DNA of 64,000 bases from Alkalicoccus chagannorensis DSM 18086 (GTDB taxonomy: Bacteria; Bacillota; Bacilli; Bacillales; Salisediminibacteriaceae). The notes under the pieces were generated by a model that saw only the letters and a program-made list of their open reading frames with translations, was not told where the DNA came from and searched no databases. Shown one piece after another: positions 16,282 to 33,086 of the stretch (positions are counted from its first letter, which is position 1; every line of letters begins with the position of its first letter). The stretch is from NCBI RefSeq assembly GCF_000429725.1, contig NZ_AUCK01000005.1:62001-126000 (forward strand), read 5' to 3'. The translations under genes were made by a program, and so were the position numbers.

Positions 16282-17280
16282 TTAAGGCAGGCGGGGATGC
16301 CGGTCGGCCGGAAAATGGATACCGGCCGCAGCGCGGGCGCTGTCCGCACTAGACATCACTTCGACCGAATGGGAGAGGGACCGGTCCGCTGCTTCCAGGT
16401 TCCCTTCCTCGATCCACCGGCAGAACGTATCGAGTTCGCCGTCCATCAAACGTTCCTGCAGCGGCCCCTGTACGATGCTCCGGGTCTGACCTCGTTTGTC
16501 CATGAAGGCCTCGAGCCCGGCGTTAACGCCATGCGGAACGCGGAGGGAGACGCCTTCGCCCTGAAACTGAATGAAGTCCTCCGTATCCACATCCTTTGCA
16601 GCTGCGGCACTGATGGTTTTATCCGGATAGCGCATCGTCAAAAGTCCGGACGTATCAATCCCTTCCTGCGTGAGAGAGGCGTGATACGAGATCTCGGCCG
16701 GTGGACCAAAAAGAGCATGAAACAAATGCAGATGATAAATCTGGAGATCCATGAGCACCCCTCCGGAAAAATCGGGAGAGAAGACATTCGGCGTCGACCC
16801 TGCTTTGAGCTGATCATACCTGCTCGAATACTGCGAGAAGTTCGCCTGGACCAGATTCCAACTTTCCCGGCTCACTGCTTCTTTCAAGGCATTGAATCCG
16901 GGCGTGTAGAGCGTGGTGACGGCTTCAGCAGCAATCTTCTTGTACCTTCGAGCGGCCTGCTGTACAGCGGCTGCTTCCTTCGCATTCGATGCGATCGGTT
17001 TTTCAATAAGGACGTGTTTCCCGTGGGCGAGCAGATCGACGGCCTGACCTGCATGAAGGCTGTTTGGTGAAGCGATATAGACCACGTCAATGTCTGCATG
17101 ATGCTTCAATGCTTCCCAGGAGGTAAGGATCTCCGGGATTTGAAAATCATCAGCCAGTCCGGCAGCGTGTTCACTGTTTCTCGTCCATACAGCTTGGGCC
17201 TGCACCCGGGGATGCTGATGAATAGATTCTAGAAAAAAACGTACGATGGATCCAGTTCCGATGACTGCAGCTCGCAGCAT
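16282..17280 (-). CDS. Gfo/Idh/MocA-family dehydrogenase
   Basis: A 332-residue NAD(P)-dependent oxidoreductase. The Rossmann motif is AVIGTGSIVRFFLE, the Lys motif is VLIEKPIASNAKEA, and the C-terminal active-site motif is GGVLMDLQIYHLHLF, with His in the expected catalytic place. It is a canonical member, unlike the altered paralogue at 9.8-10.8 kb. Substrate is likely a sugar derivative, unspecified. The gene lies 68 bases after the 17349-17912 gene on the same strand and may be co-transcribed with it. The 150 bases downstream to the HAD terminator contain no gene I can support. Confidence 0.88.
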   Translation of the reverse strand: MLRAAVIGTGSIVRFFLESIHQHPRVQAQAVWTRNSEHAAGLADDFQIPEILTSWEALKHHADIDVVYIASPNSLHAGQAVDLLAHGKHVLIEKPIASNAKEAAAVQQAARRYKKIAAEAVTTLYTPGFNALKEAVSRESWNLVQANFSQYSSRYDQLKAGSTPNVFSPDFSGGVLMDLQIYHLHLFHALFGPPAEISYHASLTQEGIDTSGLLTMRYPDKTISAAAAKDVDTEDFIQFQGEGVSLRVPHGVNAGLEAFMDKRGQTRSIVQGPLQERLMDGELDTFCRWIEEGNLEAADRSLSHSVEVMSSADSARAAAGIHFPADRHPRLP

Positions 17281-17348
17281 AGAGACGCCTCCTTAGTAAG
17301 CCTGTTCCAACCAGTATAGCTGGAACATCCGTCCGTGAAAAGGAGGGA

Positions 17349-17912
17349 TCATCCGAACAGCCTTTCTTCCTTCCACCCGCCGCCCGTGTCCTGTTTCCAT
17401 GCGCTTGCAGCCGCTTCGACAGCACGCCGGTAAAAAGGATTCATCTTTCTCCACTGGCGGGGAAGGTAATCGACAAATACCGGCGGCCGGCTCTCGAGCT
17501 GTTCTTGTTGAAGCAGGTGCTGAAGATCGGCCATCGCTGCTGCATCCGGAAATGTCACCCGGCCCTCCAGCATCCGTTTCATGTCTCTGTGTGTACTGAG
17601 CAGCGTGATGCCGGCAGGTCTGGATGGATGAACGGCTGTTTGACGAAGACCGAAGAGGACCGCAGCAGTTTCGGGATACAGCGGATGTAGGTGCTGGTCC
17701 GGGAGCTGGATCGTCTGCTGCCGGAGCAGGATGCGGCTCCGGCAGATCAGGCAGGCACCGACGGAAAGAGATGCTTGATCGTCAGAAAGAGAAGCGGCGC
17801 TGTATACACTCATTTCCGGGCTGTAATACTGAGCCTGGACGAGCCGCTGCACCTCCCGGCTTGCCAAGTGCTGCCGGCCTCCCCACAGCTGATGTTCGAT
17901 CGAAGGACGCAT
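17349..17912 (-). CDS. Hypothetical protein
   Basis: A 187-residue protein of mixed character that I do not recognise. It has no signal peptide or membrane helix. Notable segments are VGACLICRSRILLRQQTIQLP (two cysteines three apart in the CLIC motif), an aliphatic stretch AAVLFGLRQTAV and PPVFVDYLPRQWRKMNPFYRRAVEAA near the C-terminus. The start has AAAGGTGTGATG upstream. It precedes the Gfo/Idh/MocA gene, so a small two-gene transcript is likely. Confidence 0.6.
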   Translation of the reverse strand: MRPSIEHQLWGGRQHLASREVQRLVQAQYYSPEMSVYSAASLSDDQASLSVGACLICRSRILLRQQTIQLPDQHLHPLYPETAAVLFGLRQTAVHPSRPAGITLLSTHRDMKRMLEGRVTFPDAAAMADLQHLLQQEQLESRPPVFVDYLPRQWRKMNPFYRRAVEAAASAWKQDTGGGWKEERLFG

Positions 17913-18654
17913 GGTACATCACACCTTTCTTCAAGAGTAGGAAGAGGGCACCGCCTTCCTGTTTTTTAGATCGGCGCCTTCTCCTTCTATATGGGAAGAT
18001 GGCGATGCGTCTTCCCTTTTCTATTCACGTGGAATGATCTGCACGGCACTGCCCCAAAAACGATCTGCGTTCTTGGTTTATCATAGCTCCATCATAGAAC
18101 GCGCGTTCCCTTTTTGCAACAAAAAAGAACTGATGTTCGGATTTTTCGCAAAGGCTTTTCTTCATCGATCAGGATATATATACGTTGTTATCGAAGGAGA
18201 CGGCGGCTATGGGCTGAGTAGAAGTTCTTTCCTGTACAAACCTGCGGCATGCGCCCTTTCGATGAAAAGCCGCTCTGTGCTTTTAGTCAGAAGCGGTAGT
18301 GGGAGAAGTGGAAGCAGTGCGGTGACAGACAAAATGGAATAGACGGCGTGCTCTTCCTGTGACGGGATTCCCGATGAAGAACTGGGAGCAGCAGGAGCGC
18401 ATCTTGGTAGGAGTTTGCTGTACGGCTGTGAATCGGCAGCCACGTAGATCCAATGACGCATAGAAGATGAAGAGATTCGTCTTTTTCCTGCGCAGCGGTC
18501 CGTCCTATGAGTTCTTTTCATAACAAACGGATAAGCCGTTGCTCCCGATAAATGTCAAAAAATGCGGTTGGTGCGTGCGAGTTTTCAGATAATCAAGAAC
18601 GGGAGAGGAGTAAAAACGCATTGAGTAGAAAATATTGGCTATTTCCTGCGCGCA
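17913..18654. other. Gene-free stretch with hairpins and one dispersed repeat copy
   Basis: No supported gene occurs in these 740 bases. Visible structure is limited to an 18.0-kb hairpin (gggaaga / tcttccc with TTTT), the palindrome GAACGCGCGTTC near 18.1 kb followed by a T-run, and a copy of the dispersed repeat at 18170-18290. Open frames here lack ribosome sites. Confidence 0.55.
18170..18290. repeat. Dispersed degenerate element, copy A
   Basis: The best-conserved part begins ACAAACCTGCGG at 18236 and runs through GAAAAGCCGCT and a GCTTTT end. It parallels copy D at 48.4 kb, where the same landmarks read ACAAGCCTGCGG, AAAAGACGCT and GCTTTT. The preceding GACGGCGGCT also recurs in copies B and E. 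Confidence 0.6.
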
Positions 18655-18682
18655 TTGAAAGGGAGAGTTGTCCCGTTATGAT
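18655..18682 (+). promoter_or_regulatory. Sigma-A-type promoter of the receiver/HEAT/glycosyltransferase operon
   Basis: TTGAAA (18655-18660), a 16-base spacer and TATGAT (18677-18682), about 100 bases before the first start codon. Confidence 0.6.
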
Positions 18683-18781
18683 GGTTGTGATGAAAACATG
18701 TAGAGAAACTGTCCAGATTCGTTTCCTATACTGAAAACAGCAGTTATCCCTGCCAAACCTATACAAAGAGAGGGATGTACC

Positions 18782-19675
18782 ATGGCACCTCAGGAGGATT
18801 TTTTTCACCAGCCGCAGGAAGTGGAAGAGCGACTGTATGACGAAGCATTGTTTCCGCTGTTTTTCAAAATGCAGCAGTCAACCCTGGCCCGCCAATATCG
18901 TCCGTTTACGATCCTATTTGTCCGCATCGAAGGAGGTCTGGAAGCCAACATCGGTATTATCCAGTACATTACCCGCCATTTGCGGGACACGGATTCCATT
19001 TTCAGGCTGGAGAGCCGAAAGCTGCTCACCATTCTCATGCCATTTGCTGGAGAGAAAGAAGCTTTTGCCTACGTGCAGCGACTGCGGAGATCGCTGACGG
19101 ACTCTGGAAGCAGCACTCAGGAACTTCCGCATATGAAGACCGTCATGATGGAAATCAGACAGCCTGCCGCAGGATGGCAGGAAACGATGGAGAAAGCGGA
19201 ACAGACATTGGAAAAAATCCCTTCGCTGCAGGAAGTACGTCCGTATACCGTGCCGGATTATACAAAAACGGCCCCGATGATGCTGAAAGTGTCCCTTCTG
19301 GAGCCCGATTTGATTGCATCCAGTGTCCTCCAGCAGTTTCTGGGGGACTTGGAACTCGAAGGCATTCGGCTCGACTGTGCTTTTTACCGGGACGGCGTGG
19401 AATTTTTAGCATCCGACAGACACAGGTCGGATCAGCAGCATGTCATTCTGATCAGTGATGTGCTCCCGAGAAAAGATGGTCTGGAGATGATCAAAGAACT
19501 CCGGGACATGCCGAATACAGGGAAATATTACCTTATTCTATTGTCGAATAGAAAGACAGAAGAGGACATGGCCTATGCCTTCCGGCTCGGGGTGGATGAT
19601 TACATTGTGAAGCCCTTGTCCCTCTCTGTACTGGAAGCCAAAATACGCCATTTTGCAAATCGGAAGGGGTACTGA
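18782..19675 (+). CDS. Degenerate GGDEF plus receiver-domain regulator with intact c-di-GMP I-site motif
   Basis: A 297-residue cytoplasmic protein with two domains. Residues 35-125 follow a GGDEF fold: PFTILFVRIEGG is the substrate-binding strand and LRDTDSIFRLESRKLLTIL is the active-site strand. The catalytic GGDEF is replaced by ESRKL (77-81), so cyclase activity should be absent. The inhibitory-site motif RxxD is kept as R68-D69-T70-D71, exactly five residues before, as in c-di-GMP receptors. Residues about 172-297 form a receiver domain with acidic pair EPD, phosphoacceptor Asp226 in LISDVLPRKDG, LLSN, and Lys277 in YIVKPLS. It is first in a tight operon, three bases before the HEAT gene. 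It probably senses phosphorylation and c-di-GMP (inference). Confidence 0.8.
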   Translation: MAPQEDFFHQPQEVEERLYDEALFPLFFKMQQSTLARQYRPFTILFVRIEGGLEANIGIIQYITRHLRDTDSIFRLESRKLLTILMPFAGEKEAFAYVQRLRRSLTDSGSSTQELPHMKTVMMEIRQPAAGWQETMEKAEQTLEKIPSLQEVRPYTVPDYTKTAPMMLKVSLLEPDLIASSVLQQFLGDLELEGIRLDCAFYRDGVEFLASDRHRSDQQHVILISDVLPRKDGLEMIKELRDMPNTGKYYLILLSNRKTEEDMAYAFRLGVDDYIVKPLSLSVLEAKIRHFANRKGY

Positions 19676-19678
19676 CCT

Positions 19679-20743
19679 ATGTTCACTTCTTTGACGGCGG
19701 CCATCTGGATCGTCGCAGGGCTTGCTGCTGTGTTGACGCTGATCTTCACCTATCTGCTGATAAACCGCGGTGTTGAATCCTATCGCCGCAGAAGAAGTGA
19801 CGCTTTTATGGTCTCTGCGGCTGCCGATGTGTACCAGTTTATGCGGCATGGAGGCAAACCTGCCCGGTCGTTAATTCCGAACGAACGGTGGAAGATGGAA
19901 ACCATGGAAAAGATTTTTCACAGCTACCGCTATCACATCCAGCATGAACAGCTAATGCAGCGGATGTCGATGTTTGCGGAATGGTATATGCTCGATTTCT
20001 ACAGCAAAGAAATGCGGAGCCGGAAATGGAGCCGGAGGATGAATGCCCTATCCCGTATCATTGAATTCCGGGTGAGCGGACTGATGGACCAGGTGGAGGA
20101 ACGGCTCCAGTCAGACGGGGTGCGGTCGGAAGAGGAGAGGCTTCTGATGGTCCGCGCGCTGCTGATGATGAAAGAGGAGCGCGGGCTGATGTACCTGAAA
20201 GATCAAAAGGCAGAATGGAGCGAGTTCGATTACCGCCGCCTTCTGCTGGATGTTGAAGCCTCTTCTATCGATCAGATGCTTCTTGTCTTCGATACGTACA
20301 CCCTGCCACTGCAGTATGCGCTTGTAGATGCGATCGGTGTCCGGCAGCTGACGGAACACCAGGCATTTTTAGAGTCCCTGCTCGAGAGCGGCAGCCAAGA
20401 GATCCGTGTGAGAAGTTTAAAATCCCTGCACCTGCTCCCGGTTGTTTATGATCCTTCCGTTTATATCGGCTTTGCGGAATCTCCTTTATGGGAGGAGCGG
20501 TTGATGACGGCCAAACTAGCTGGGCGTCTGCCGATGGAGCTGAGCCTCCCGCTGCTCCGGACCATGATGCATGATTCCTCCTGGTGGGTGCGGATCGAGG
20601 CGGCACGGGCATTGAGCAGCGTACATGAGGGACGGAACATTCTCGACGAGCTGCGGACATCCGAAGAAGACCGTTACTGTGCCGATGCTGCTGTAGAAGC
20701 ACTGGAGAGGAGGAGTGACCATGTCCTGGCCGGCGTTCGGTGA
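19679..20743 (+). CDS. Membrane-anchored HEAT-repeat protein
   Basis: A 354-residue protein with one N-terminal transmembrane helix (about 7-28) and a large cytoplasmic helical part. The C-terminal two thirds fit HEAT-like helical repeats, clearest at SQEIRVRSLKSLHLLP and DSSWWVRIEAARALSSV, each with the Arg/Ala pattern of HEAT B helices. HEAT repeats are scaffolds for protein contacts. The 3-base gap from the receiver gene and the 23-base overlap with the glycosyltransferase gene suggest that it links the regulator to the membrane enzyme (inference). No catalytic motif. Confidence 0.78.
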   Translation: MFTSLTAAIWIVAGLAAVLTLIFTYLLINRGVESYRRRRSDAFMVSAAADVYQFMRHGGKPARSLIPNERWKMETMEKIFHSYRYHIQHEQLMQRMSMFAEWYMLDFYSKEMRSRKWSRRMNALSRIIEFRVSGLMDQVEERLQSDGVRSEEERLLMVRALLMMKEERGLMYLKDQKAEWSEFDYRRLLLDVEASSIDQMLLVFDTYTLPLQYALVDAIGVRQLTEHQAFLESLLESGSQEIRVRSLKSLHLLPVVYDPSVYIGFAESPLWEERLMTAKLAGRLPMELSLPLLRTMMHDSSWWVRIEAARALSSVHEGRNILDELRTSEEDRYCADAAVEALERRSDHVLAGVR

Positions 20744-22151
20744 AGCTGTATACTGGTTTTTCGCTGTCCTTATTTTCGTCTACATGCTCATCGTTATTTT
20801 CTTTTACACCGGACTGCTCGGCCTCTCTGCGTTTCAGCTGAAAAAAGAATCGCGCTGGAACCGCACCATGGAGCACGATGAGGATATGAACGCTCACTAT
20901 ACGAAGCCTGTTACGGTTCTGGTTCCAGCATACAACGAAGAAAAAGGCGTTGTAGATACCGTCCGTTCCCTGCTGAGCCTCCGCTACCCTCAAGTGGAGA
21001 TACTCGTGATCAACGATGGGTCGTCAGATGGTACGCTGGAGACGATGATCGAGCATTTCTCCATGAAGCCGGTCAATCGTACGGTCCGGAGACAGCTGGA
21101 TACTGCGCCGGTGCACGGTATTTACCAGTCGAACATCCTGCCGCACCTGTATCTGGTCGATAAAGAAAATGGAGGGAAAGCCGACGCCTTGAACGCCGGC
21201 ATCAACATTTCGAGATATCCTTATTTCTGCTCTATTGACGGCGATTCGATTCTGGAGTCGGATGCCCTGCTGAAAGTGATGAAGCCGGTCATCAAGTCTG
21301 GAGATAATATTGTTGCCTCCGGAGGAAGTGTCCGGATAGCCAACGGCTGCGATATTCAGCAGGGGGCGGTACTGAGCACAAGCGTTTCGAAGCGCCCGAT
21401 TGTGATTATGCAGATCATCGAATACGTTCGTGCGTTTCTCATCAGCCGTGTCGGACTCAGCCGGTTCAATCTTCTGATGATCATCTCCGGCGCATTCAGC
21501 GTGTTTCAGAAAAAGGCTGTGATCGAAGCCGGCGGGTATCATACGGATACGGTCGGAGAGGACATGGAACTGGTCGTCCGCCTTCATCGGATAAACAAAG
21601 AAGAGAAGAAGAACCAGCAGATCAGCTACGTCACGGAACCTGTCTGCTGGACAGAAGCACCGGAGACGATGAAAGGCCTGCAGCGGCAGCGGAGCCGCTG
21701 GCATAGAGGAATGCTGGAGAGCTTATGGGCACATAAGCGGATGACCATGAATCCGAAGTACGGCAAAGTCGGGACGGTCGCGTTCCCTTATTTCTGGATT
21801 GTAGAAATGTTCGGTCCGGTGATTGAATTTACCGGCTACCTGTTTCTAATCGTCTCGTTCTTCATGGGAGAAGTCTATTGGCAGTTCGGACTTGCACTGC
21901 TGCTCATGATGGTGCTTTACGGATCGCTGCTTTCATTAGGTGCCGTTCTGCTGGAAGTGTGGAGTTTAAACAAATACCCAAGGCCGCGGGATATGGTCGC
22001 GTTATTTTTCTATTCGCTCACGGAAACGTTCTGGTACCGCCCATTGACCGTTCTGTTCCGGCTTTTCGGTATTGGTCAGTGGATATTCAAGTACCGGAGA
22101 TGGGATCCGCAGGAGAGGAAAGGACTATCCAGACCTAAAGTTGCGGATTGA
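20721..22151 (+). CDS. Membrane family 2 glycosyltransferase, poly-N-acetylglucosamine/cellulose synthase-like
   Basis: A 476-residue integral membrane glycosyltransferase. An N-terminal helix (about 9-34) is followed by a GT-A domain: VTVLVPAYNEEKGV, VINDGSSDGT, the metal motif SIDGDS, SGAFSVFQKKA, the base motif TVGEDMELV and the processivity motif QRQRSRWHRG. C-terminal helices follow at about 350-440. The motif set is that of processive polysaccharide synthases such as IcaA/PgaC or YdaM. It probably polymerises and exports a surface polysaccharide; the sugar is unknown. The ATG at 20721 with AGGAGG seven bases upstream is preferred over GTG at 20715. It is the last gene of the operon. Confidence 0.87.
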   Translation: MSWPAFGEAVYWFFAVLIFVYMLIVIFFYTGLLGLSAFQLKKESRWNRTMEHDEDMNAHYTKPVTVLVPAYNEEKGVVDTVRSLLSLRYPQVEILVINDGSSDGTLETMIEHFSMKPVNRTVRRQLDTAPVHGIYQSNILPHLYLVDKENGGKADALNAGINISRYPYFCSIDGDSILESDALLKVMKPVIKSGDNIVASGGSVRIANGCDIQQGAVLSTSVSKRPIVIMQIIEYVRAFLISRVGLSRFNLLMIISGAFSVFQKKAVIEAGGYHTDTVGEDMELVVRLHRINKEEKKNQQISYVTEPVCWTEAPETMKGLQRQRSRWHRGMLESLWAHKRMTMNPKYGKVGTVAFPYFWIVEMFGPVIEFTGYLFLIVSFFMGEVYWQFGLALLLMMVLYGSLLSLGAVLLEVWSLNKYPRPRDMVALFFYSLTETFWYRPLTVLFRLFGIGQWIFKYRRWDPQERKGLSRPKVAD

Positions 22152-22163
22152 TTCATTTTGATA

Positions 22164-22224
22164 GGTATAAAGGATGGTTTATAGGGTTGGGTTTATAGTA
22201 AACCTATTGTATACCGAGTATACT
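22164..22224 (+). promoter_or_regulatory. Direct-repeat operator and -10 element before the SARP-like gene
   Basis: GGTTTATAG occurs exactly twice, at 22176-22184 and 22190-22198, with a weaker copy GGTATAAAG at 22164-22172. TATACT at 22219-22224 is a good -10 element with no clear -35. SARP regulators are known to bind short direct repeats near the -35 region, so this fits autoregulation. Confidence 0.5.
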
Positions 22225-22251
22225 GAGGAAAAGATACAGGGGGGATTCAGT

Positions 22252-23415
22252 ATGCGTGTACTGGTGATCGAGGAGGGCACTCCGGAAGCGGAGCAGTGGT
22301 CAGAAGTGATGCACGGAGAGAAGAAGCAGGCAGGCAGAGCCATCAAAACGTCGCTGACATTCGAAAGCCGGGACGAGAGTGGTAGAACATCCCCCCTGGA
22401 AAAAGGAATCGGTGGCGTCATTGATGAACTGTCGGATGAAAAACCTTCTCTTGTCGTGATGTATATCCAAAAGTCCGGAGACGTCGACATACGGACATTT
22501 GAACTTCACGAAGCGGATCATCTACTGGATCCGGTCGTTAAAAAGCGGTTGAAATCAGAAGCAGCCAAGTGGCAGAAGCCGGCTCCTCCAGCTGGAGCAG
22601 TGAAGCTGCAGCTCTTCCGGGACGTCGTTCTCAGAGAAGCCGGCAAAGAGCTGCCGCTCCGCTGGAGAACCTCCAAAGTACAGCAGCTGTTCCTCTACTT
22701 AATGCAGCACCGGAACCAGTGGGTGGAGAAGGCACAGCTCATTGAACTGCTCTGGCCGGAGTATGAGACAGAACGCGCCTATTCCCAGCTTTATACCGCC
22801 GTCTATCATGTCCGTAAAACGATAAAGCCGTTTCATCATGCCTTTTCGCTCCACAGCAGTGGCGGCGGCTATGTCATTCAGATACATGACGCAGACATTG
22901 ACGCGGACCGGTTTGCGTCCGTTCTGCAGGAGCATCCCGTGCCGCATGCAGATAATGTGAACGAGCTGGAAGAGGCGATGGCTTTATACAAAGGGCCTTA
23001 CCTGGAACATAAAGACTATGTCTGGGCCGAGCCGGAACGAGTGCGGCTGCAGACACGCTGGCTGGAAATGGGCAAAAAACTGCTCGCCTTTTATTGGAAT
23101 TCCGGCGAAGTGCAGCGCGCCTACAAACTGGCACAGAAAATGAACGACCTGGAACCGCTGCACGACGAGAGTTATTTATACCTCATGCGGATTTTCCATA
23201 AACTGGACCGTGATTATGCGGTGGAGGCAGTCTATGAAAAGCTGGTGCGGACATGGAAACAGGAACTGCAGGAACCGCCGCCGGAAGCGCTCCACCGATG
23301 GTATCAGCAGTGGCGTGTCCTGAAAACACACGGGGATCGGGAAGAAACGTGGAGCCGCGCATCGAAGCAGCCGAACCTGCCCTGGGAGGAGAAACAACTT
23401 CGTCATTTCTATTAA
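22252..23415 (+). CDS. SARP-like transcriptional regulator with OmpR-type DNA-binding and BTAD domains
   Basis: A 387-residue protein. Residues 1-115 are variable and may replace a receiver domain. Residues about 118-205 match a winged-helix Trans_reg_C domain: KLQLFRDVVLREAGKELPLRW, the recognition part QLIELLWPEYE and YTAVYHVRKTIKPF, ending GGGYVIQI. Residues 215-370 form a bacterial transcriptional activation domain of TPR-like helices (MALYKGPYLEHKDYVWAEPER, LYLMRIFHKLDRDYAVEAVYE). It follows the glycosyltransferase operon but has its own -10 element and repeated operator. A regulator of the neighbouring polysaccharide genes is plausible. Confidence 0.82.
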   Translation: MRVLVIEEGTPEAEQWSEVMHGEKKQAGRAIKTSLTFESRDESGRTSPLEKGIGGVIDELSDEKPSLVVMYIQKSGDVDIRTFELHEADHLLDPVVKKRLKSEAAKWQKPAPPAGAVKLQLFRDVVLREAGKELPLRWRTSKVQQLFLYLMQHRNQWVEKAQLIELLWPEYETERAYSQLYTAVYHVRKTIKPFHHAFSLHSSGGGYVIQIHDADIDADRFASVLQEHPVPHADNVNELEEAMALYKGPYLEHKDYVWAEPERVRLQTRWLEMGKKLLAFYWNSGEVQRAYKLAQKMNDLEPLHDESYLYLMRIFHKLDRDYAVEAVYEKLVRTWKQELQEPPPEALHRWYQQWRVLKTHGDREETWSRASKQPNLPWEEKQLRHFY

Positions 23416-23470
23416 TCGCATGCTTGCGGATAGGAAGACGGAACGCGAAGATTGTGGATAAATAGAACAA

Positions 23471-23496
23471 AGCCGGAAGCGGTCCAGCTTCCGGCT
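23471..23496 (+). terminator. Terminator of the SARP-like gene
   Basis: A perfect 10-bp stem (agccggaagc / gcttccggct) followed by TTTT. Confidence 0.85.
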
Positions 23497-23564
23497 TTTT
23501 CATACTATTAGGAATGGATAAGTTCTCATAAAGGGAGGCGACGGCTGCGGCCGCGGGGAACTTC

Positions 23565-24893
23565 TTATTCGAGGCGGCCGGCAGCCGTCAGCCGCTCTTC
23601 ATAAAAGTCACTGTTTTCCAGATGGCGGACAGCTGTACCGGAAGAGACCGTAACCGTGATGATTTGATCGTTGCCGGTGTAAATACCAGCAAGCAGGCCG
23701 GTATCCCCTTCAAAAAAGAGCAGGTCGTCCGGCTGCCGGTCAGCAGGATCGATCGGCGTGGAAACTTCTTTCAGTGCCTCTGCTGTCGCCGGCGTTTCCG
23801 TGTCATAGGCATCATACCAGGCGGACTTCACGAGTTCAGCTGTGTCCATCCCATCGTCGCTCTCCGCCTCGTGCGGCTCGTGCAGGTAATCCAGCGCCGC
23901 TGAAGCAGCTGGAGCATCCTGCACGCGGGTCATGTCATCAAAGCGTCGCGTGTCGGTATAGGCGTCTTCCCAGTAGTCATGCAGATAAGAAATCTGGACT
24001 TGGTTTTCAGAACGGGAAGCGTGAATCATGAATCCTCCGCCGACATAAATGCCGGCATGCGTAACATCGCCTTCTTCCCGCTCGTCGTCGTCGACTTCCA
24101 CATCGGAGAAATACATGACGTCACCAGGGCGGGTTTCCTCCCGATCGATGGAGCTCCCTTCTTTTACCTGGTCCAGCGTCACACGTGGCAGGGCTGTATC
24201 GTGATGCTGTGCGAATACTTCCTGAACGAAAAAGGAACAATCGAAAGCCTCCAGGGAATTACCGCCGAATTCATACGGAGTGCCGAGGTAATTCATGGCT
24301 TCCCTGACGGCAGGATGATCATGATCCTCGTACGTTCCGGGATGCAGCCGCTCCTGCTCTTCTTGGGTGAGCCGGATGCCGCCTTCAAAATGGCGTGCCC
24401 AGAAGGAGTCATCATCCAGCCGGAGTTCTTCTGTCCCGCTGCTCTGAGAAGCGGTCACAAAAGAGCCGTCTCCGGTATAAACACCGGACATCAGGGTGTC
24501 TCCTTCAAAAAAGACGACATCACCGGGCCGCAGATCTTCCTCCGGTACGGGTTCGCCAAGGTCAGACTGATGATGAGCAGCCAGCGGCATGCGGATACCG
24601 GTCGCTTCTTCATAAATATATTGAACCAGGCCGGAAGGGGAAAACCCTTCTTCGGGCGAACTGCCGTCACGATCATACGAATAGCCGGTCATCTCGAGCG
24701 CTTTGGAGCGGAGTTCTTCCTCCTCATAATCGAGTTCCGTTGCGAGGATTCCGTCGCTGTGTGGATTCTGGCCGGACGTTTCTGTCGATGGCTGGTCCGG
24801 GTCTTCGGGATCATTCTGTGAATCGATCTCGGTTATCGCCCACCAGACGATGGCGCCGAGAATACCAACCGTTATAAGAAACCACCATCTCAC
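23565..24893 (-). CDS. Membrane-anchored protein with three NlpC/P60 domains, only the middle one catalytic
   Basis: A 442-residue acidic surface protein with an N-terminal membrane anchor (about 4-20) and an Asp/Pro/Ser linker. Three NlpC/P60-like modules follow at about 60-175, 192-320 and 325-442, each with a PGD or PDD (V/L)x(Y/F)F strand. The active Cys motif reads FSPSGLVQ in the first (Cys lost), FDCSFFVQ with Cys219 and THAGIY His279 in the second, and DTAELVK in the third (Cys lost). Only the middle copy should cut cell-wall peptides; the others may bind substrate. A GTG start is preferred because GGGAG lies upstream at good spacing; an ATG seven codons earlier (24914) is possible. 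Confidence 0.8.
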   Translation of the reverse strand: MRWWFLITVGILGAIVWWAITEIDSQNDPEDPDQPSTETSGQNPHSDGILATELDYEEEELRSKALEMTGYSYDRDGSSPEEGFSPSGLVQYIYEEATGIRMPLAAHHQSDLGEPVPEEDLRPGDVVFFEGDTLMSGVYTGDGSFVTASQSSGTEELRLDDDSFWARHFEGGIRLTQEEQERLHPGTYEDHDHPAVREAMNYLGTPYEFGGNSLEAFDCSFFVQEVFAQHHDTALPRVTLDQVKEGSSIDREETRPGDVMYFSDVEVDDDEREEGDVTHAGIYVGGGFMIHASRSENQVQISYLHDYWEDAYTDTRRFDDMTRVQDAPAASAALDYLHEPHEAESDDGMDTAELVKSAWYDAYDTETPATAEALKEVSTPIDPADRQPDDLLFFEGDTGLLAGIYTGNDQIITVTVSSGTAVRHLENSDFYEERLTAAGRLE

Positions 24894-27078: not shown

Positions 27079-28224
27079 TCAGCGGTTGGTCAGAAAGTTA
27101 TATGGTTCCAGGTCATCTGTAATCGGTTCGAAGCGGTACCCGCGGTCATCAATGAGGGCTAGAATGTCCGGGAGTGCTTCCACCGTGACTTCGAGGTCAT
27201 GCAACAGGACGATCGGTGTCTCGCCACGTCGTTCTGCCTGGATGAGCTGGGAACGGACACGGTCCACGACGTCGTCGGCTGAGTCGGCCGCCCAGTCTCT
27301 GGAATCAACCGTCCAGTCCCAGATATCGTAGCCGGCTTCGAGCATGGCCTCGTGATGGGCATCCGTCATATGCGGCGAACTGCCATAAGGCGTGCGGACC
27401 GCGTCGTTGGTGCGCCCTGTGATCTGGGACATGACCGTATAGCAGCTGTCCATTTCCCCCACAGCAGCTTCCGGAGAAGCGTAAAAACGATCCCGGTCAT
27501 GGGTGATGCCATGGCAGGCGCCGGTATGCCCTTCGCGCACGATGCGCCTCATCGTATCAGGGTGCTCATACATATTGCCCCGGAGTGTGAAAAACGTAGC
27601 CTCCACGTCGTGGGAAGCAAGAATATCAAGAATCGGCTCGGTGTACTCGTTCGGCCCGTCATCAAACGTGAGGTAGGCCGGAGGCATGGCGGCCTCACGC
27701 TGTTCCTCGATCCAGGCTTCGCGTGCATCGGCAAACGCAAGAACTTCCTCTTCATGCATGGCGACAAAAGCACTGGTACCTCCGGAAAAATCGTCGGTAT
27801 AGACGTGTGCTGTTGGTCCGGTGCTGCTGTACCCTACTTGATAATCAAATGCTTCGGCAATGAGGCGGTACGGAAGCATCGTTCGGTTTTCAACGATGGG
27901 AATATCCGCTTCGATGATCGTCCCGTCGCCGTAGCGGACCAGTCCGTATTCAGCATTCAGTACGAGTGTGGTGCCTTCTTTCGTCAACGTGACGCGCTGA
28001 TCTTCCGGTTCCCATTGAAGCGAGACATCCATGGCGTCCGTAAAAAAACGGACAGGAACATAAGTACTGCCATCTTCCACAAATGGCTGCTGATCCGGAA
28101 AGTCGACAATATCGTCTTCGACTCCGACGAGAATCGGAAGGCGGTCGAGATCTGCGGCTGCAGCGGACGTCCAGCTGAACATCAGCAGCACCGTCCCGAG
28201 CAGCATGGCTCCAGTTAATTTCAT
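27079..28224 (-). CDS. Secreted polysaccharide deacetylase with a stalk domain
   Basis: A 381-residue exported enzyme. The signal peptide MKLTGAMLLGTVLLMFSWTS ends near SAAAA. Residues about 30-140 resemble the copper-amine-oxidase N-terminal or stalk domain seen in wall-associated Bacillus proteins (VPVRFFTDAMDVSLQW, MLPYRLIAEAFDYQV). Residues 180-370 form a NodB deacetylase: the first motif is YLTFDDGPNEYT, the metal His pair is in ACHGITHDRDR, RTPYGSS follows, then IWDWTVDSRDW and IVLLHD. It removes acetyl groups from peptidoglycan or another glycan. Start 28224 is preferred, with AGGGGGA upstream. Confidence 0.9.
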   Translation of the reverse strand: MKLTGAMLLGTVLLMFSWTSAAAADLDRLPILVGVEDDIVDFPDQQPFVEDGSTYVPVRFFTDAMDVSLQWEPEDQRVTLTKEGTTLVLNAEYGLVRYGDGTIIEADIPIVENRTMLPYRLIAEAFDYQVGYSSTGPTAHVYTDDFSGGTSAFVAMHEEEVLAFADAREAWIEEQREAAMPPAYLTFDDGPNEYTEPILDILASHDVEATFFTLRGNMYEHPDTMRRIVREGHTGACHGITHDRDRFYASPEAAVGEMDSCYTVMSQITGRTNDAVRTPYGSSPHMTDAHHEAMLEAGYDIWDWTVDSRDWAADSADDVVDRVRSQLIQAERRGETPIVLLHDLEVTVEALPDILALIDDRGYRFEPITDDLEPYNFLTNR

Positions 28225-28461
28225 GATAATCCCCCTAAACATGATATAAGTTTTCCCTCTGTAACACTACTTCGATACGAAATAAAAAAGTCCTGCCTGT
28301 TTTCGGGAAAAAGGAGAACCTTCCCGGGAAAGTGGAAACGACCGGCCATCAGATCCGTGCTGTGCCTCCAGGGCTCCTGATTCCACCAGCTTTGGCATGG
28401 TTCCGATTGTCTTGTTTCTCCATGGTGCAAGTGACGGCTGGTGCCTATGTATCCTGGTCGG

Positions 28462-29432: not shown

Positions 29433-30725
29433 ATGAAGTGGTTTCAATCAAAAAAACAGGAGGCCGGTACGGCTGTACTGAATAAAGAAGAAGCGCACGT
29501 ACGCCTCGCGCTGCATCATCATCCGCAGGTGCAGACGCAGCTCGACATGACAATGATTGATGAATCGACACTGAAGGAACTGGCCGCAGTGAAGCCGCTG
29601 ATCGATAAGCACATCCAGCATCTCATCGACTTTTTCTACAAGAACCTGGAGAAGCAGCCGGGTTTAATGGACATCATCAACGAAAACAGCTCGACGGAAC
29701 GGCTGAAAAAAACACTGCGCGTCCACATTGCAGAAATGTTTTCGGGCACGATCGACGACGAGTTCATCCAAAAACGGGTCCGTATTGCCGTCGTCCATGC
29801 ACGAATCGGCCTGGAGCCGAAATGGTATCTCTGTTCTTATCAGGCGCTGCAGCAGGAAATGTTCCGGACGTTTGCGACGGAGATCGAAGACAGGGAGGAA
29901 CTATATGCTGCGATGGACAGCACGGCAAAAATACTCAGCCTTGAACAGCAGCTTGTTCTTGAGGCTTACGACAATCGGATAGAAGAAATCAGGCAGGAAG
30001 AAGCGAGCCGGCGGGAGGAGCTGCACAGCCAACTCTCCGGGAGGTCTCAGGAGCTCGGGGCGATTGCGGAGGAGACGAACGCATCCATTGAAGAAATGTC
30101 GCATCAGTCGGCCCAGATTACGGAAAAATCGAAAGAAGGCACGGCGATTGCCCAGCAGGCGGAGTCCTCCGCAAAAGAAGGGCAGGACCGCGTTCATCAA
30201 CTGTCTGAAGTGATGAAAAAGACCACGTTCAGCGTGGAACAGATCGAACGGCAGATGGAAGAGCTGTCAGCCTTCTCGAAAGAAATCAAAGACATCGTCG
30301 GAATCGTTCAGGGGATTGCCGATGAAACGAACCTGCTTGCGCTGAACGCGGCGATCGAAGCGGCTAGAGCGGGGGAGCACGGAAGAGGCTTTGCGATCGT
30401 GGCCGATGAGGTCAGGAAGCTCTCTGAACAGACGAAGGACTCCGTTGTGAAAGTAACCAATCTGACGAATCAGACGGAAGAAGGCGTGCAGGGGAATGCG
30501 GCGCTGTCAAAAGAGATCGCTGAAAAAATGATCGAAGGAAACAACTATGTAGAGTCGGTGGAGAGCGCCTTCTCAACGATTCTCAGCCGCATGCAGGATG
30601 CCGTGGATAAAAATGCCGAGATCGAAGAAGACCTTTCCTCTTTTCAGGGTGTCGTATCCGAAGTTGGGAACGCGTCGAATCAGATCGCCGTGACAGCAGA
30701 GAAAATGCTGGAACAGACAGAGTAA
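29433..30725 (+). CDS. hemAT: Globin-coupled chemotaxis transducer HemAT
   Basis: A 430-residue cytoplasmic aerotaxis receptor. Residues 1-175 are a sensor globin; the proximal haem ligand is His122 in [15 protein letters not shown], the HemAT hallmark. Residues 200-430 are a methyl-accepting signalling domain with the hairpin tip [37 protein letters not shown], which contacts CheA and CheW. There are no transmembrane helices. Oxygen binding to haem changes kinase activity. Length matches the Bacillus protein. GGGAGGGAC precedes the ATG. The gene stands alone. Confidence 0.95.
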
Positions 30726-31070: not shown

Positions 31071-33086
31071 ATGCTGACATCGCTGGGTGAGGACAATCGA
31101 GAAGCTATTGTGTCATTTCTGAATCAAATGACGGATGCAGTCATGGTATGGAAAGTGGAAGACCACGGGACGTTCCGCTGTGATGCAGTCAATCATGCCG
31201 CTCTGCCGGCCGGGGAATCGCTGGATGCCTATCGAGGAAAAATCATGCAGGAGTTGTTTCCCCATCAACGGGCACTCCCTTTGATGGAAGCCTGTCGACA
31301 GACCGTACGAAGAGGAGTGGAGAACCGATTCGAGCAGGAAACGGAGCCCGGGCGTTTTGAGGAAACGATTGTTACGCCCGTGGTGCAGGAGGGAGCCGTA
31401 CGATCGCTGATATCGGTCACTCGTGATATAACCGAAAGAAAAAAAGTAGAAGAAACGCGCCGGGTGATGGAGGACAAGTACCATTCCCTCGTTCAAATGA
31501 ATCAGGATGCGGTTCTGGAAATCTACGGAGACGGGCGTATTGCAGCAGCCAATGCAGCAGCGGAGGAAGTCATCGGGTATAAGCGGGAAGCGATCGAGGG
31601 CACATCCATGTTTCGGTATGTACCTGAAGGTGATCAAATACGCCTGCAGACGGTGATTGCACAGACGGCGGGCGGCTCTGCTGCCGAGCTGGAAATGCCC
31701 TGTCTCCGGGAAGACGGCGCCTGGCTCGAAGGAAGATGGAAATTCGTTCCTGCTATGCTCGAGGCAGAGGTGCAGGGAGCTTTTGTGATCGTCAAAGATA
31801 TTACAAAAGAAAAACAGGCTGCCATGGCAGTGGAAGAAAAAAGACAGCTGTACCGCCACTTGATTGATGAATCTCCGGACGGCATGCTCGTTCATCAGCA
31901 AGGGGTCATCCGCTATGCGAACGAGAAAGCGTCGTTGATGCTCGGACAGCAGTCCGGAGCATTAAAAGGGCAGCCTCTGGAAACCTTCCTCGTTCCTCCG
32001 GAGGAAACCGATCCTCTGGCTGAGGCGGCGGCGCCGGGACCAGGAATGCTGCGGGAGAAGCGGGTGCTGAAGGCAGATGGTCAGATGATGTATGTCGAGG
32101 TATCCGATGCGCCGCTGCTGTTCGAAGGAGCGGAAGCGACGTATTTGACGATCCGGGATGTGACGGCGAGAAAGCAGACCGAGCGTGCGCTGATTGAAAG
32201 TGAAGAACGGTACCGGCTGATTACAGAGAATGCCCGGGATCTGATCCAGCTGCTGACGCCGAACGGCCGGATCCTGTATGCCTCTCCTTCGCACCAGCGT
32301 ATACTCGGGCCTTCTTCTTCCAGCGATCTCGGCAGGCAGGTGCTGCATCAGCATCACTATGAAGAAATGCTGCGTGTCTGTGTGGAGACAATTTCGCTGC
32401 AGATCGAAGAATTTCAGCTGCATGATCAAGAACGCTGGCTGTCTCTCCGCTTCATCCCTATTCAGGAGAGTGGAGAGGTCAAAAAAGTGCTGGTCATCGG
32501 CGAAGATGTGACGACAAGGAAAGAATACGAACATCGTATTCATTACATGGCCTATCACGATGAACTCACCGGCCTGCTCAACCGGACGAGCTTCATGGAT
32601 CATATGGAGGCTGTTCATGCCAAGGCGGTGACGACCGGGGCGACCTATGCCGTGCTGTTTCTGGACTGTGATAATTTCAAGGAGATCAATGATGAACTCG
32701 GCCATGACGGGGGCGATACCTTCCTTGTGACGATTGCAGGCAGGATTTCCGATATATTTGGGGACACGTCTGTCACGGCCCGGATGGGGGGAGATGAGTT
32801 TACGATTCTCATGCCGGATACGTCCCGCGAAGACGTGGAAACGGCAGCAGAGAAACTGCTGGACACGATCCAGGCGCCATGGCACCGCGGAGAGAAAACG
32901 TATTCGGTGTCGATCAGCATCGGCATCGCCTTTTTCCAGCACGGAGATGAGCCGAAAGAAGTCGTAAAGAAGGCAGATTGGGCGCTGTACGAAGCAAAGG
33001 AAAGAGGTCGAAACCGCTTCGTCCAGTATCCCGGCGACAGCACAGCCCCTGCAGAGCGTCTGTCTTCGGGTAATAATAAAGTATAA
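31071..33086 (+). CDS. Diguanylate cyclase with four PAS domains
   Basis: A 671-residue soluble protein. Four PAS-like modules come first. Several end in the PAC-type DIT motif: VTRDITERKK at about 117-126, VKDITKEKQ, IRDVTARKQ and IGEDVTTRKEYE. A GGDEF domain begins MAYHDELTGLLNRTSF and has substrate motif LDCDNFKEINDELGHDGGD and the intact catalytic MGGDEF at 573-577. No RxxD inhibitory site is present five residues upstream, so it should make c-di-GMP without I-site feedback. No EAL domain. GGGAGGGACGGG precedes the ATG. The stop lies at the very edge of a dispersed repeat copy. Confidence 0.9.
   Translation: MLTSLGEDNREAIVSFLNQMTDAVMVWKVEDHGTFRCDAVNHAALPAGESLDAYRGKIMQELFPHQRALPLMEACRQTVRRGVENRFEQETEPGRFEETIVTPVVQEGAVRSLISVTRDITERKKVEETRRVMEDKYHSLVQMNQDAVLEIYGDGRIAAANAAAEEVIGYKREAIEGTSMFRYVPEGDQIRLQTVIAQTAGGSAAELEMPCLREDGAWLEGRWKFVPAMLEAEVQGAFVIVKDITKEKQAAMAVEEKRQLYRHLIDESPDGMLVHQQGVIRYANEKASLMLGQQSGALKGQPLETFLVPPEETDPLAEAAAPGPGMLREKRVLKADGQMMYVEVSDAPLLFEGAEATYLTIRDVTARKQTERALIESEERYRLITENARDLIQLLTPNGRILYASPSHQRILGPSSSSDLGRQVLHQHHYEEMLRVCVETISLQIEEFQLHDQERWLSLRFIPIQESGEVKKVLVIGEDVTTRKEYEHRIHYMAYHDELTGLLNRTSFMDHMEAVHAKAVTTGATYAVLFLDCDNFKEINDELGHDGGDTFLVTIAGRISDIFGDTSVTARMGGDEFTILMPDTSREDVETAAEKLLDTIQAPWHRGEKTYSVSISIGIAFFQHGDEPKEVVKKADWALYEAKERGRNRFVQYPGDSTAPAERLSSGNNKV

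Follow-up and report, generated by a model that had tools for sequence, protein, structure and literature searches.

A compact operon in Alkalicoccus chagannorensis DSM 18086 may well encode a polysaccharide synthase that is placed under the control of cyclic dimeric guanosine monophosphate (c-di-GMP) by a relative of the enzymes that make this nucleotide. The operon lies at 18782-23415 of a stretch of 64,000 nucleotides (contig NZ_AUCK01000005.1, positions 62,001 to 126,000; hereafter the window). Its first product, which we call P1, is in our judgement probably a c-di-GMP receptor that reads the nucleotide at the allosteric inhibitory site (I-site) of a degenerate GGDEF domain, is built on a pseudo-receiver, and acts via a membrane-bound HEAT-repeat adaptor on a processive glycosyltransferase of family 2 (GT2).

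Four same-strand open reading frames (ORFs) run across 18782-23415, three of them packed together and the fourth encoding a regulator. P1 (18782..19675, +; 297 aa), assigned from the ORF list, Pfam and alignments, joins a pseudo-GGDEF to a pseudo-receiver domain and has no hydrophobic segment. It is followed after 3 bases by the HEAT-repeat protein (19679..20743, +; 354 aa; Pfam HEAT_2 E 1.1e-9), whose gene overlaps by 23 bases that of the processive-type GT2 (20721..22151, +; 476 aa from ATG). The longest GT2 ORF starts at a GTG (20715-22151, 478 aa), from which the overlap would be 29 bases. The ORF coordinates agree with the spacing given in the original prediction, which was made from the DNA letters and ORF list alone, and all ORFs of the window operon are open and closely packed.

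The first half of P1 is, by sequence comparison, a cyclase relative whose active-site signature has been lost. This degenerate GGDEF domain covers approximately residues 20-155 (18839..19246, +). In the Pfam scan of P1 it gave a PelD_GGDEF match at E 3e-5, below the Pfam cut-off (24.3 and 26.3 bits against 27). A profile of 22 P1 relatives aligned with active GGDEF domains in hhalign at a probability of 98.5 and E 3e-15, which bears out the earlier assignment of residues 35-125 to the GGDEF fold, and a search of the P1 profile against PDB at E 0.1 returned five matches, all of them GGDEF proteins, the best being DosC (E 4.8e-14). In the predicted model of P1 (mean predicted local distance difference test score, pLDDT, 87.9), strands and helices follow one another in a sequence consistent with a GGDEF domain. 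ESRKL (residues 77-81; 19010..19024, +) stands where GG(D/E)EF would be, and the primary I-site motif RxxD (R68-D-T-D71; 18983..18994, +) precedes it by five residues, so that both the spacing and the lost signature are as first described.

The gene order recurs far beyond the window. A search of 299 genomes of the order at E 1e-8 recovered the HEAT protein family in 115, and its profile matched 7 of 398 genomes in a phylum-wide sample at E 1e-20, the genome of origin included. With profiles built for this analysis, we annotated 119 loci, comprising the HEAT places from the order search minus the window, plus L061 and L062 (L and G numbers are our handles for loci and genomes). A GT2 gene lies within two genes downstream in 116 of these, a receiver protein within two genes upstream in 105, and both are present in 103. 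A scan of named genomes gave 42 loci, 40 of them with receiver and GT2 neighbours, from Bacillaceae, Paenibacillus, Sporosarcina, Lysinibacillus, Clostridia assemblies, Ruoffia, Salinicoccus and one Arthrobacter assembly; some of these loci (L164-L205) come from genomes that already bear G handles (L166=L046, L165=L047, L168=L062, L178=L049), and the two sets are not independent. Conservation of the gene order beyond close relatives, on which the original prediction had staked itself, is thus borne out, whereas its view of the operon as a one-off minimal analogue gives way to that of a reduced branch of a widespread module.

In its common form, this module comes with a hybrid kinase and a further receiver, and its cyclase is intact. 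The gene upstream of 123 HEAT frames encodes Hpt-REC-GGDEF-REC in 82 cases, GGDEF-REC in 14 (one of them the window), REC-GGDEF-REC in 6 and REC alone in 5; in the remaining 16 it is of another kind. In the long form (Hpt-REC-GGDEF-REC/HEAT/GT2), genes for a hydrolase-like protein of ~1,060-1,100 aa, for a REC protein and for a hybrid kinase often come next, and the window genome itself carries such a long form elsewhere (G000:C2, L045), with a GT2 that is 52% identical to that of the window. The two forms share a homologous receiver-HEAT-GT2 core, on one strand in the window, but the long form retains the intact cyclase signature, an aspartate phosphoacceptor, a kinase and a further receiver, none of which is present in the window operon. 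Receiver-only versions of the module occur at L197 and L200 (Salinicoccus) and L195 (Ruoffia), and at both Salinicoccus loci a GGEEF protein without RxxD adjoins the module on the opposite strand. L167, on an Arthrobacter beigongshangensis contig, is a Bacilli-like short form in an actinobacterial assembly and reflects either transfer or contamination. A plasmid search with the HEAT protein gave one partial match, on Geobacillus plasmid CP128455.1 (L044), typed as conjugative; we rejected it as an example of the same layout, as the HEAT fragment there instead adjoins nucleotidyltransferase, BcsB-like, GT2 and PMT-like genes. Matches in PHROGs are confined to the receiver and glycosyltransferase parts.

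The strongest evidence for ligand binding comes from the residues that P1 and its relatives have kept. Besides R68 and D71, alignments and the literature identify R100 (19079..19081, +) as the third I-site residue, the counterpart of R395 in B. cereus PelD and R390 in PleD. The c-di-GMP site of B. cereus ATCC 10987 PelD is reported to consist of R363, D366 and R395, alanine variants of which gave no signal in isothermal titration calorimetry, and its +3/+32 spacing is identical to that of R68, D71 and R100 in P1 (PMC7112168). The I-site of PleD is described as R359, D362 and R390 together with R313 of the partner subunit (PMC7288161), and the location of the partner arginine as varying between proteins (PMC8041772). 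From its position, R37 of P1 (18890..18892, +) is a possible equivalent of R313, the secondary I-site arginine. Only five columns are invariant in an alignment (A6) of 22 P1 domains, one from the window and 21 from the 24 named short forms, namely R37, R68, D71, E93 and R100. Three short forms (L172, L174 and L199) were left out of A6; L172 and L199 retain R68, D71 and R100, and L174 is cut short.

A broader alignment sets 25 degenerate against 79 active GGDEF domains from the order. The 25 were taken from 39 non-GGDEF upstream proteins, with L047 represented by its upstream ORF rather than its 154-aa one. Omitted were L081, L114, L120, L128, L132 and L145 (another kind of upstream gene), L099, L115, L150, L153 and L162 (a fragment or a distant gene), L158 (a 252-base gap), and L151 and L156 (GGDEF half not recognisable, RxxD missing); at L079, L124 and L155, no gene on the same strand lies shortly upstream. 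The best-kept columns of the degenerate domains are D71 (23/25), R68 (22/25), a hydrophobic column (22/25) and R100 (21/25), so the I-site residues are their best-kept polar columns, while positions invariant in the active domains, including GG(D/E)EF and the DxxxFKxxND region, have decayed. The named set has 30 rows; the 25 with residues at the RxxD positions all have R68 and D71 (the other 5 are gapped), while R100 is kept in 25 of 26 and R37 in 24 of 25. P1 combines what marks an I-site receptor, that is, GGDEF homology, a lost signature, and an RxxD five residues upstream of it together with the third arginine. The conservation strongly supports c-di-GMP binding at its I-site, and sequence comparison lends similarly strong support to the original proposal of a degenerate GGDEF receptor serving a GT2 synthase. 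Taken together, the best-kept I-site columns and a gene order that recurs across the order and beyond point to more than chance.

How this state arose was approached with a GT2 tree, a quick bootstrap-free reconstruction (LG+G4) from 82 of 153 rows after thinning, which gives no direction of change. The window falls within a set of 25 GT2 rows (23 degenerate, 2 REC-only; Shimodaira-Hasegawa approximate likelihood ratio, SH-aLRT, 99), apart from its own long-form paralogue, and this branch occurs in both Bacilli and Clostridia. The active or degenerate label requires at least seven changes on the tree. Because regain is unlikely, we take these to be repeated losses of cyclase activity. The window's branch retains RxxD, as do the lineages of L116, L126/L136/L143, L159/L163, L063 and L084; it is lost or damaged in those of L078, L142 and L112/L151/L156. 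A congener (G007) holds two tandem copies of the module (L061 3768-10292), with ORFs that are open and in several cases overlapping. The HEAT genes there are truncated and one GT2-like gene lacks catalytic motifs (a weak profile comparison, probability 7), and both GGDEF halves retain R37, R68, D71 and R100, with a BTAD regulator after each copy; the tandem looks like former enzymes kept for regulation. Since L061 apparently occupies the same place as the window operon, its truncations could also suggest that the window copy is a decaying paralogue heading for loss, as could the finding of P1 matches at E 1e-20 in just 6 of 35 genomes of the family, even when the self-match and receiver-only matches are counted. 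With the window ORFs open and closely packed and the catalytic residues of the GT2 intact, we regard such decay as very unlikely.

Several observations weigh against P1 as an I-site receptor. The receiver half filled the fold-search lists of P1, leaving the GGDEF half without an independent match by fold. Active cyclases often carry the same residues (R37 68/79, R68 65/79, D71 76/79, R100 60/79), so part of the retention is inherited, and the aligned rows are related. R37 is retained in just 18 of the 25 degenerate domains of the order, and L116, L119 and L137 lack it; R68 is lost in L078, RxxD in L142 and L112, and R100 is missing in L063 and L084, while L151 and L156 have no recognisable GGDEF half. 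No receiver protein lies within two genes upstream in 14 of the 119 HEAT loci, all on the long-form side as far as they are placed on the GT2 tree, and the genomes of Ruoffia and two Salinicoccus retain receiver, HEAT and GT2 without the GGDEF half. HEAT and GT2 can thus do without either partner, and the 14 loci make HEAT-GT2 the firmest pair of the module.

These receiver-less and half-less loci, together with the N-terminal halves of L112, L151 and L156, which lack RxxD, are also what would be expected if control were free of c-di-GMP, with HEAT-GT2 constitutive or otherwise triggered and the GGDEF remnant serving as a structural dimerisation domain. A purely structural remnant, however, would not be expected to concentrate its retention on ligand residues over the domain core, and GGDEF matches number only two in each of the three half-less genomes, compared with 6-24 in 17 of the 18 that retain the half (the eighteenth, G109, also has two). 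We therefore consider c-di-GMP-free control unlikely. The tie between loss of the GGDEF half and a small c-di-GMP network is suggestive only, as four long-form-side genomes with a lost or unrecognised half still hold 7-26 GGDEF matches.

The second half of P1 is a pseudo-receiver domain, as judged from its sequence (approximately residues 166-297; 19277..19672, +; Pfam Response_reg E 1.5e-9). What had been taken for a complete receiver domain is complete in fold (best VIA Z 19.1 to receivers), but Ser225 (19454..19456, +) occupies the phosphoacceptor position in the alignments and the acidic pair is E174-P175. The 30 rows of the named set have Asn at this position in 25 cases, Asp in 4 and Ser in 1, compared with Asp in 79 of 79 long forms; Asp is also present in several degenerate proteins of other lineages. 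The receiver fold, the retention of K277 and S255, an aspartate (D226) adjoining the usual phosphoacceptor position and the four Asp rows would fit a phosphorylatable response regulator, or a heterodimeric cyclase subunit, under an unlinked histidine kinase. Yet P1 lacks the phosphoacceptor aspartate that defines phosphorylatable response regulators, as do the Asn rows of its relatives; the operon is without a kinase gene; and the GG(D/E)EF signature has gone along with most residues invariant in active domains, all of which makes either role highly improbable. Members of the window's branch that have lost the GGDEF half still carry the receiver, which suggests that the pseudo-receiver is the contact for the HEAT protein.

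The HEAT protein is membrane-anchored, as originally proposed, by a single N-terminal hydrophobic segment (residues 5-23; 19691..19747, +), the only one found by hydropathy in this protein and one that neither P1 nor the regulator possesses. It is followed by an arginine-rich stretch, and by the positive-inside rule the HEAT repeats are probably cytoplasmic. The GT2 has hydrophobic segments at both ends and all the D, DxD, ED and QxxRW motifs of a processive enzyme (D99, D173/D175, E280/D281, Q323-R326-W327), the same motifs as in PgaC. Its best NCBIfam match is PgaC/IcaA, at 148.1 bits against an equivalog cut-off of 422.3; this identity was rejected as the score lies far under the curated cut-off, and for the same reason the polymer cannot be assigned.

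We propose the following sequence of events, in which the steps after binding, contacts and switch alike, are drawn from gene order and domain logic. P1 would have arisen from a cyclase, its GGDEF domain becoming unable to make c-di-GMP while keeping the allosteric I-site. The nucleotide would bind there through R68, D71 and R100, perhaps with R37 from a partner subunit and probably in a dimer. The pseudo-receiver, its phosphoacceptor lost, would offer a phosphorylation-independent contact surface and relay the state of P1 to the HEAT protein; anchored in the membrane, the latter would sit beside the GT2 synthase and switch polymer synthesis. A membrane-anchored hydrolase whose gene lies in another part of the genome may trim the polymer outside, and the regulator of the SARP type may adjust transcription locally.

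The ligand is probably made in this host, whose genome has 22 GGDEF matches. Two active-looking cyclases had been placed near the operon; one indeed bears a GGDEF signature, without RxxD, while the other reads AGDEF rather than GGDEF and has an RxxD. A protoglobin-type chemoreceptor in the window (29433-30725), probably an oxygen sensor, adjoins two PAS-GGDEF proteins at 31071 and 34782. An Rfam scan of 17000-24000 found nothing at the gathering threshold, and hence no known c-di-GMP riboswitch there. Cyclase-like genes do recur near short forms: counting 27 short-form loci (L061, L174, L196, REC-only loci and the repeats L165, L166, L168 and L178 left out), 8 of the 26 besides the window have a same-strand gene for a cyclase-like protein 2-4 genes upstream (5 GG(D/E)EF, 3 SGDEF), a count that favours our reading, although it comes without a formal null. 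Among Clostridia assemblies, a GGEEF protein with RxxD precedes the short form at L179, L180, L172 and L185, and at the first three a ~1,030-aa protein with a further degenerate GGDEF domain does so as well.

Such neighbours leave room for P1 to bind c-di-GMP mainly in order to recruit a partner cyclase and build up a local c-di-GMP pool, with another effector switching the synthase. The model for this is YdaK, whose contact with DgcK is reported to require the YdaK I-site (PMC7064775). Against it, no cyclase neighbour was found within the fetched flanks of the other 18 of 26 loci, and no other effector is evident, as a PilZ domain was not found by Pfam in the GT2 (the genome was not searched for PilZ) and BcsB was not found in the genome. 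Recruitment as the main role is, in our estimate, rather improbable, and we retain control of the synthase by P1 via the HEAT adaptor as the favoured explanation.

Comparison with known systems places the operon beside, rather than within, established families. PelD carries membrane helices and a GAF domain before its GGDEF domain, and the pss and yda systems both use a GT2 synthase and include a BcsB-like partner. In Pga, c-di-GMP binds PgaC/PgaD; a degenerate GGDEF receptor in that system, as named in the original prediction, is not known to us. PelD of Pseudomonas aeruginosa and Bacillus cereus ATCC 10987 resembles P1 in its degenerate GGDEF domain with an intact RxxD and third arginine, and it reads c-di-GMP for a polysaccharide synthase, the role proposed for P1. 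In P1, by contrast, neither a hydrophobic segment nor a GAF match at E 1 was found, and a C-terminal pseudo-receiver is present instead; with the PelD_GGDEF score also below its cut-off, membership of the PelD family was rejected. PssE and YdaK, from the Listeria pssA-E and B. subtilis ydaJKLMN operons, are, like the predicted P1, I-site receptors in exopolysaccharide operons. In PssE, RxxD is likewise followed after five residues by a lost signature (PMC4125290); YdaK spans the membrane with four helices (PMC7064775), and the yda operon includes a putative glycosyl hydrolase, YdaJ (PMC13274460). Unlike YdaK, P1 seems soluble, and the HEAT protein forms the membrane part. A search of the whole host genome for BcsB (PF03170) found no match, with positive controls in E. 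coli and B. subtilis; given this and a receptor without a membrane segment, membership of a yda, Pss or BcsAB system was also rejected. By analogy, the P1 operon would work like PelD, PssE and YdaK, yet stand outside the Pel and yda/Pss systems.

A hydrolase is found somewhere in 86 of the 119 HEAT loci, and modelling indicates a membrane-anchored, clan-A-like family that is recurrent beside the GT2 in many relatives. The gene lies outside the window operon, and the host genome has two copies (G000:C6:42805-46017 and G000:C14:49814-52939; L208 and L209), which share 52% and 46% identity with the L046 protein and lie in 19-kb stretches where neither a HEAT nor a GT2 gene was found. The L046 hydrolase matched no Pfam family above the cut-off, and neither it nor the family profile found sequence relatives in PDB. 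The model of the same protein from L166 begins with a helix and holds a clan-A-like barrel; its best fold match is glycoside hydrolase family GH157 (Z 25.2, root-mean-square deviation 3.0, 294 residues aligned), and the list of 50 rows, with many GH2 and GH5 entries, spans no more than 2.8 Z units, a spread so close that the family is left unassigned. Within the window, a polysaccharide deacetylase with a copper amine oxidase N-terminal-like domain (27079-28242, -) is encoded ~4 kb away from the regulator, and the polymer is a possible substrate for it.

The SARP-type regulator downstream (22252..23415, +) consists of a winged helix followed by BTAD, as first read and now supported by Pfam (BTAD 55.2 bits against a cut-off of 22.1; Trans_reg_C 30.4 against 26.2). 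It is, however, an occasional neighbour rather than a core part of the module, as a local profile from few sequences places a BTAD regulator beside it in the window, L061, L164 and L046. The longest ORF starts at 22174, but a start at 22252 is more likely because a strong ribosome site precedes that ATG. Its receiver too is decayed, judging from a remnant with a 34% alignment to a REC-winged helix-BTAD regulator that adjoins the Heyndrickxia camelliae module; the window regulator itself gave no receiver match. The gap before it (22152-22251) contains GTATAC-CGA-GTATAC, a possible operator or promoter of the regulator's own. Upstream of the operon, TTGAAA-16-TATGAT (18655..18682, +) is promoter-like by consensus match only, since the scan of 18450-23600 found 3 sites against 4.7 expected from shuffling and so no evidence of function. 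A terminator-like hairpin of 12 pairs (23469..23498, scored on the minus strand) lies between the regulator and a convergent NlpC/P60 gene.

Gram-positive bacteria have, to our knowledge, only a handful of established c-di-GMP receptors for polysaccharide synthesis, those of Pel, Pss and Yda, and a search of open-licence PubMed Central full text (titles and abstract starts, subscription papers lying outside it) found no description of a receiver-HEAT-GT2 operon. The wider proposal, which we hold to be evenly poised, is that the module represents an undescribed class of c-di-GMP-controlled polysaccharide machine in Firmicutes, in which the cyclase of the operon became, several times independently, a reader of the nucleotide it once made, through loss of the active site and retention of the I-site. 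Most members of the window's branch would also have given up phosphorylation, which would leave an adaptor switch driven by c-di-GMP, and where the signal network is small the reader half would have gone too, with receiver, HEAT and GT2 left behind. If true, it would add a receptor without a membrane segment, acting via a HEAT adaptor whose gene is present in over a third of the genomes sampled from the order. The module also points to a family of membrane-anchored hydrolases that recurs beside it and for which no Pfam match was found in the member scanned. Similar operons in many related bacteria make the idea testable, and with this position in the operon taken by an intact cyclase in most genomes but by an inactive relative elsewhere, the module would offer a direct view of an enzyme becoming a sensor.

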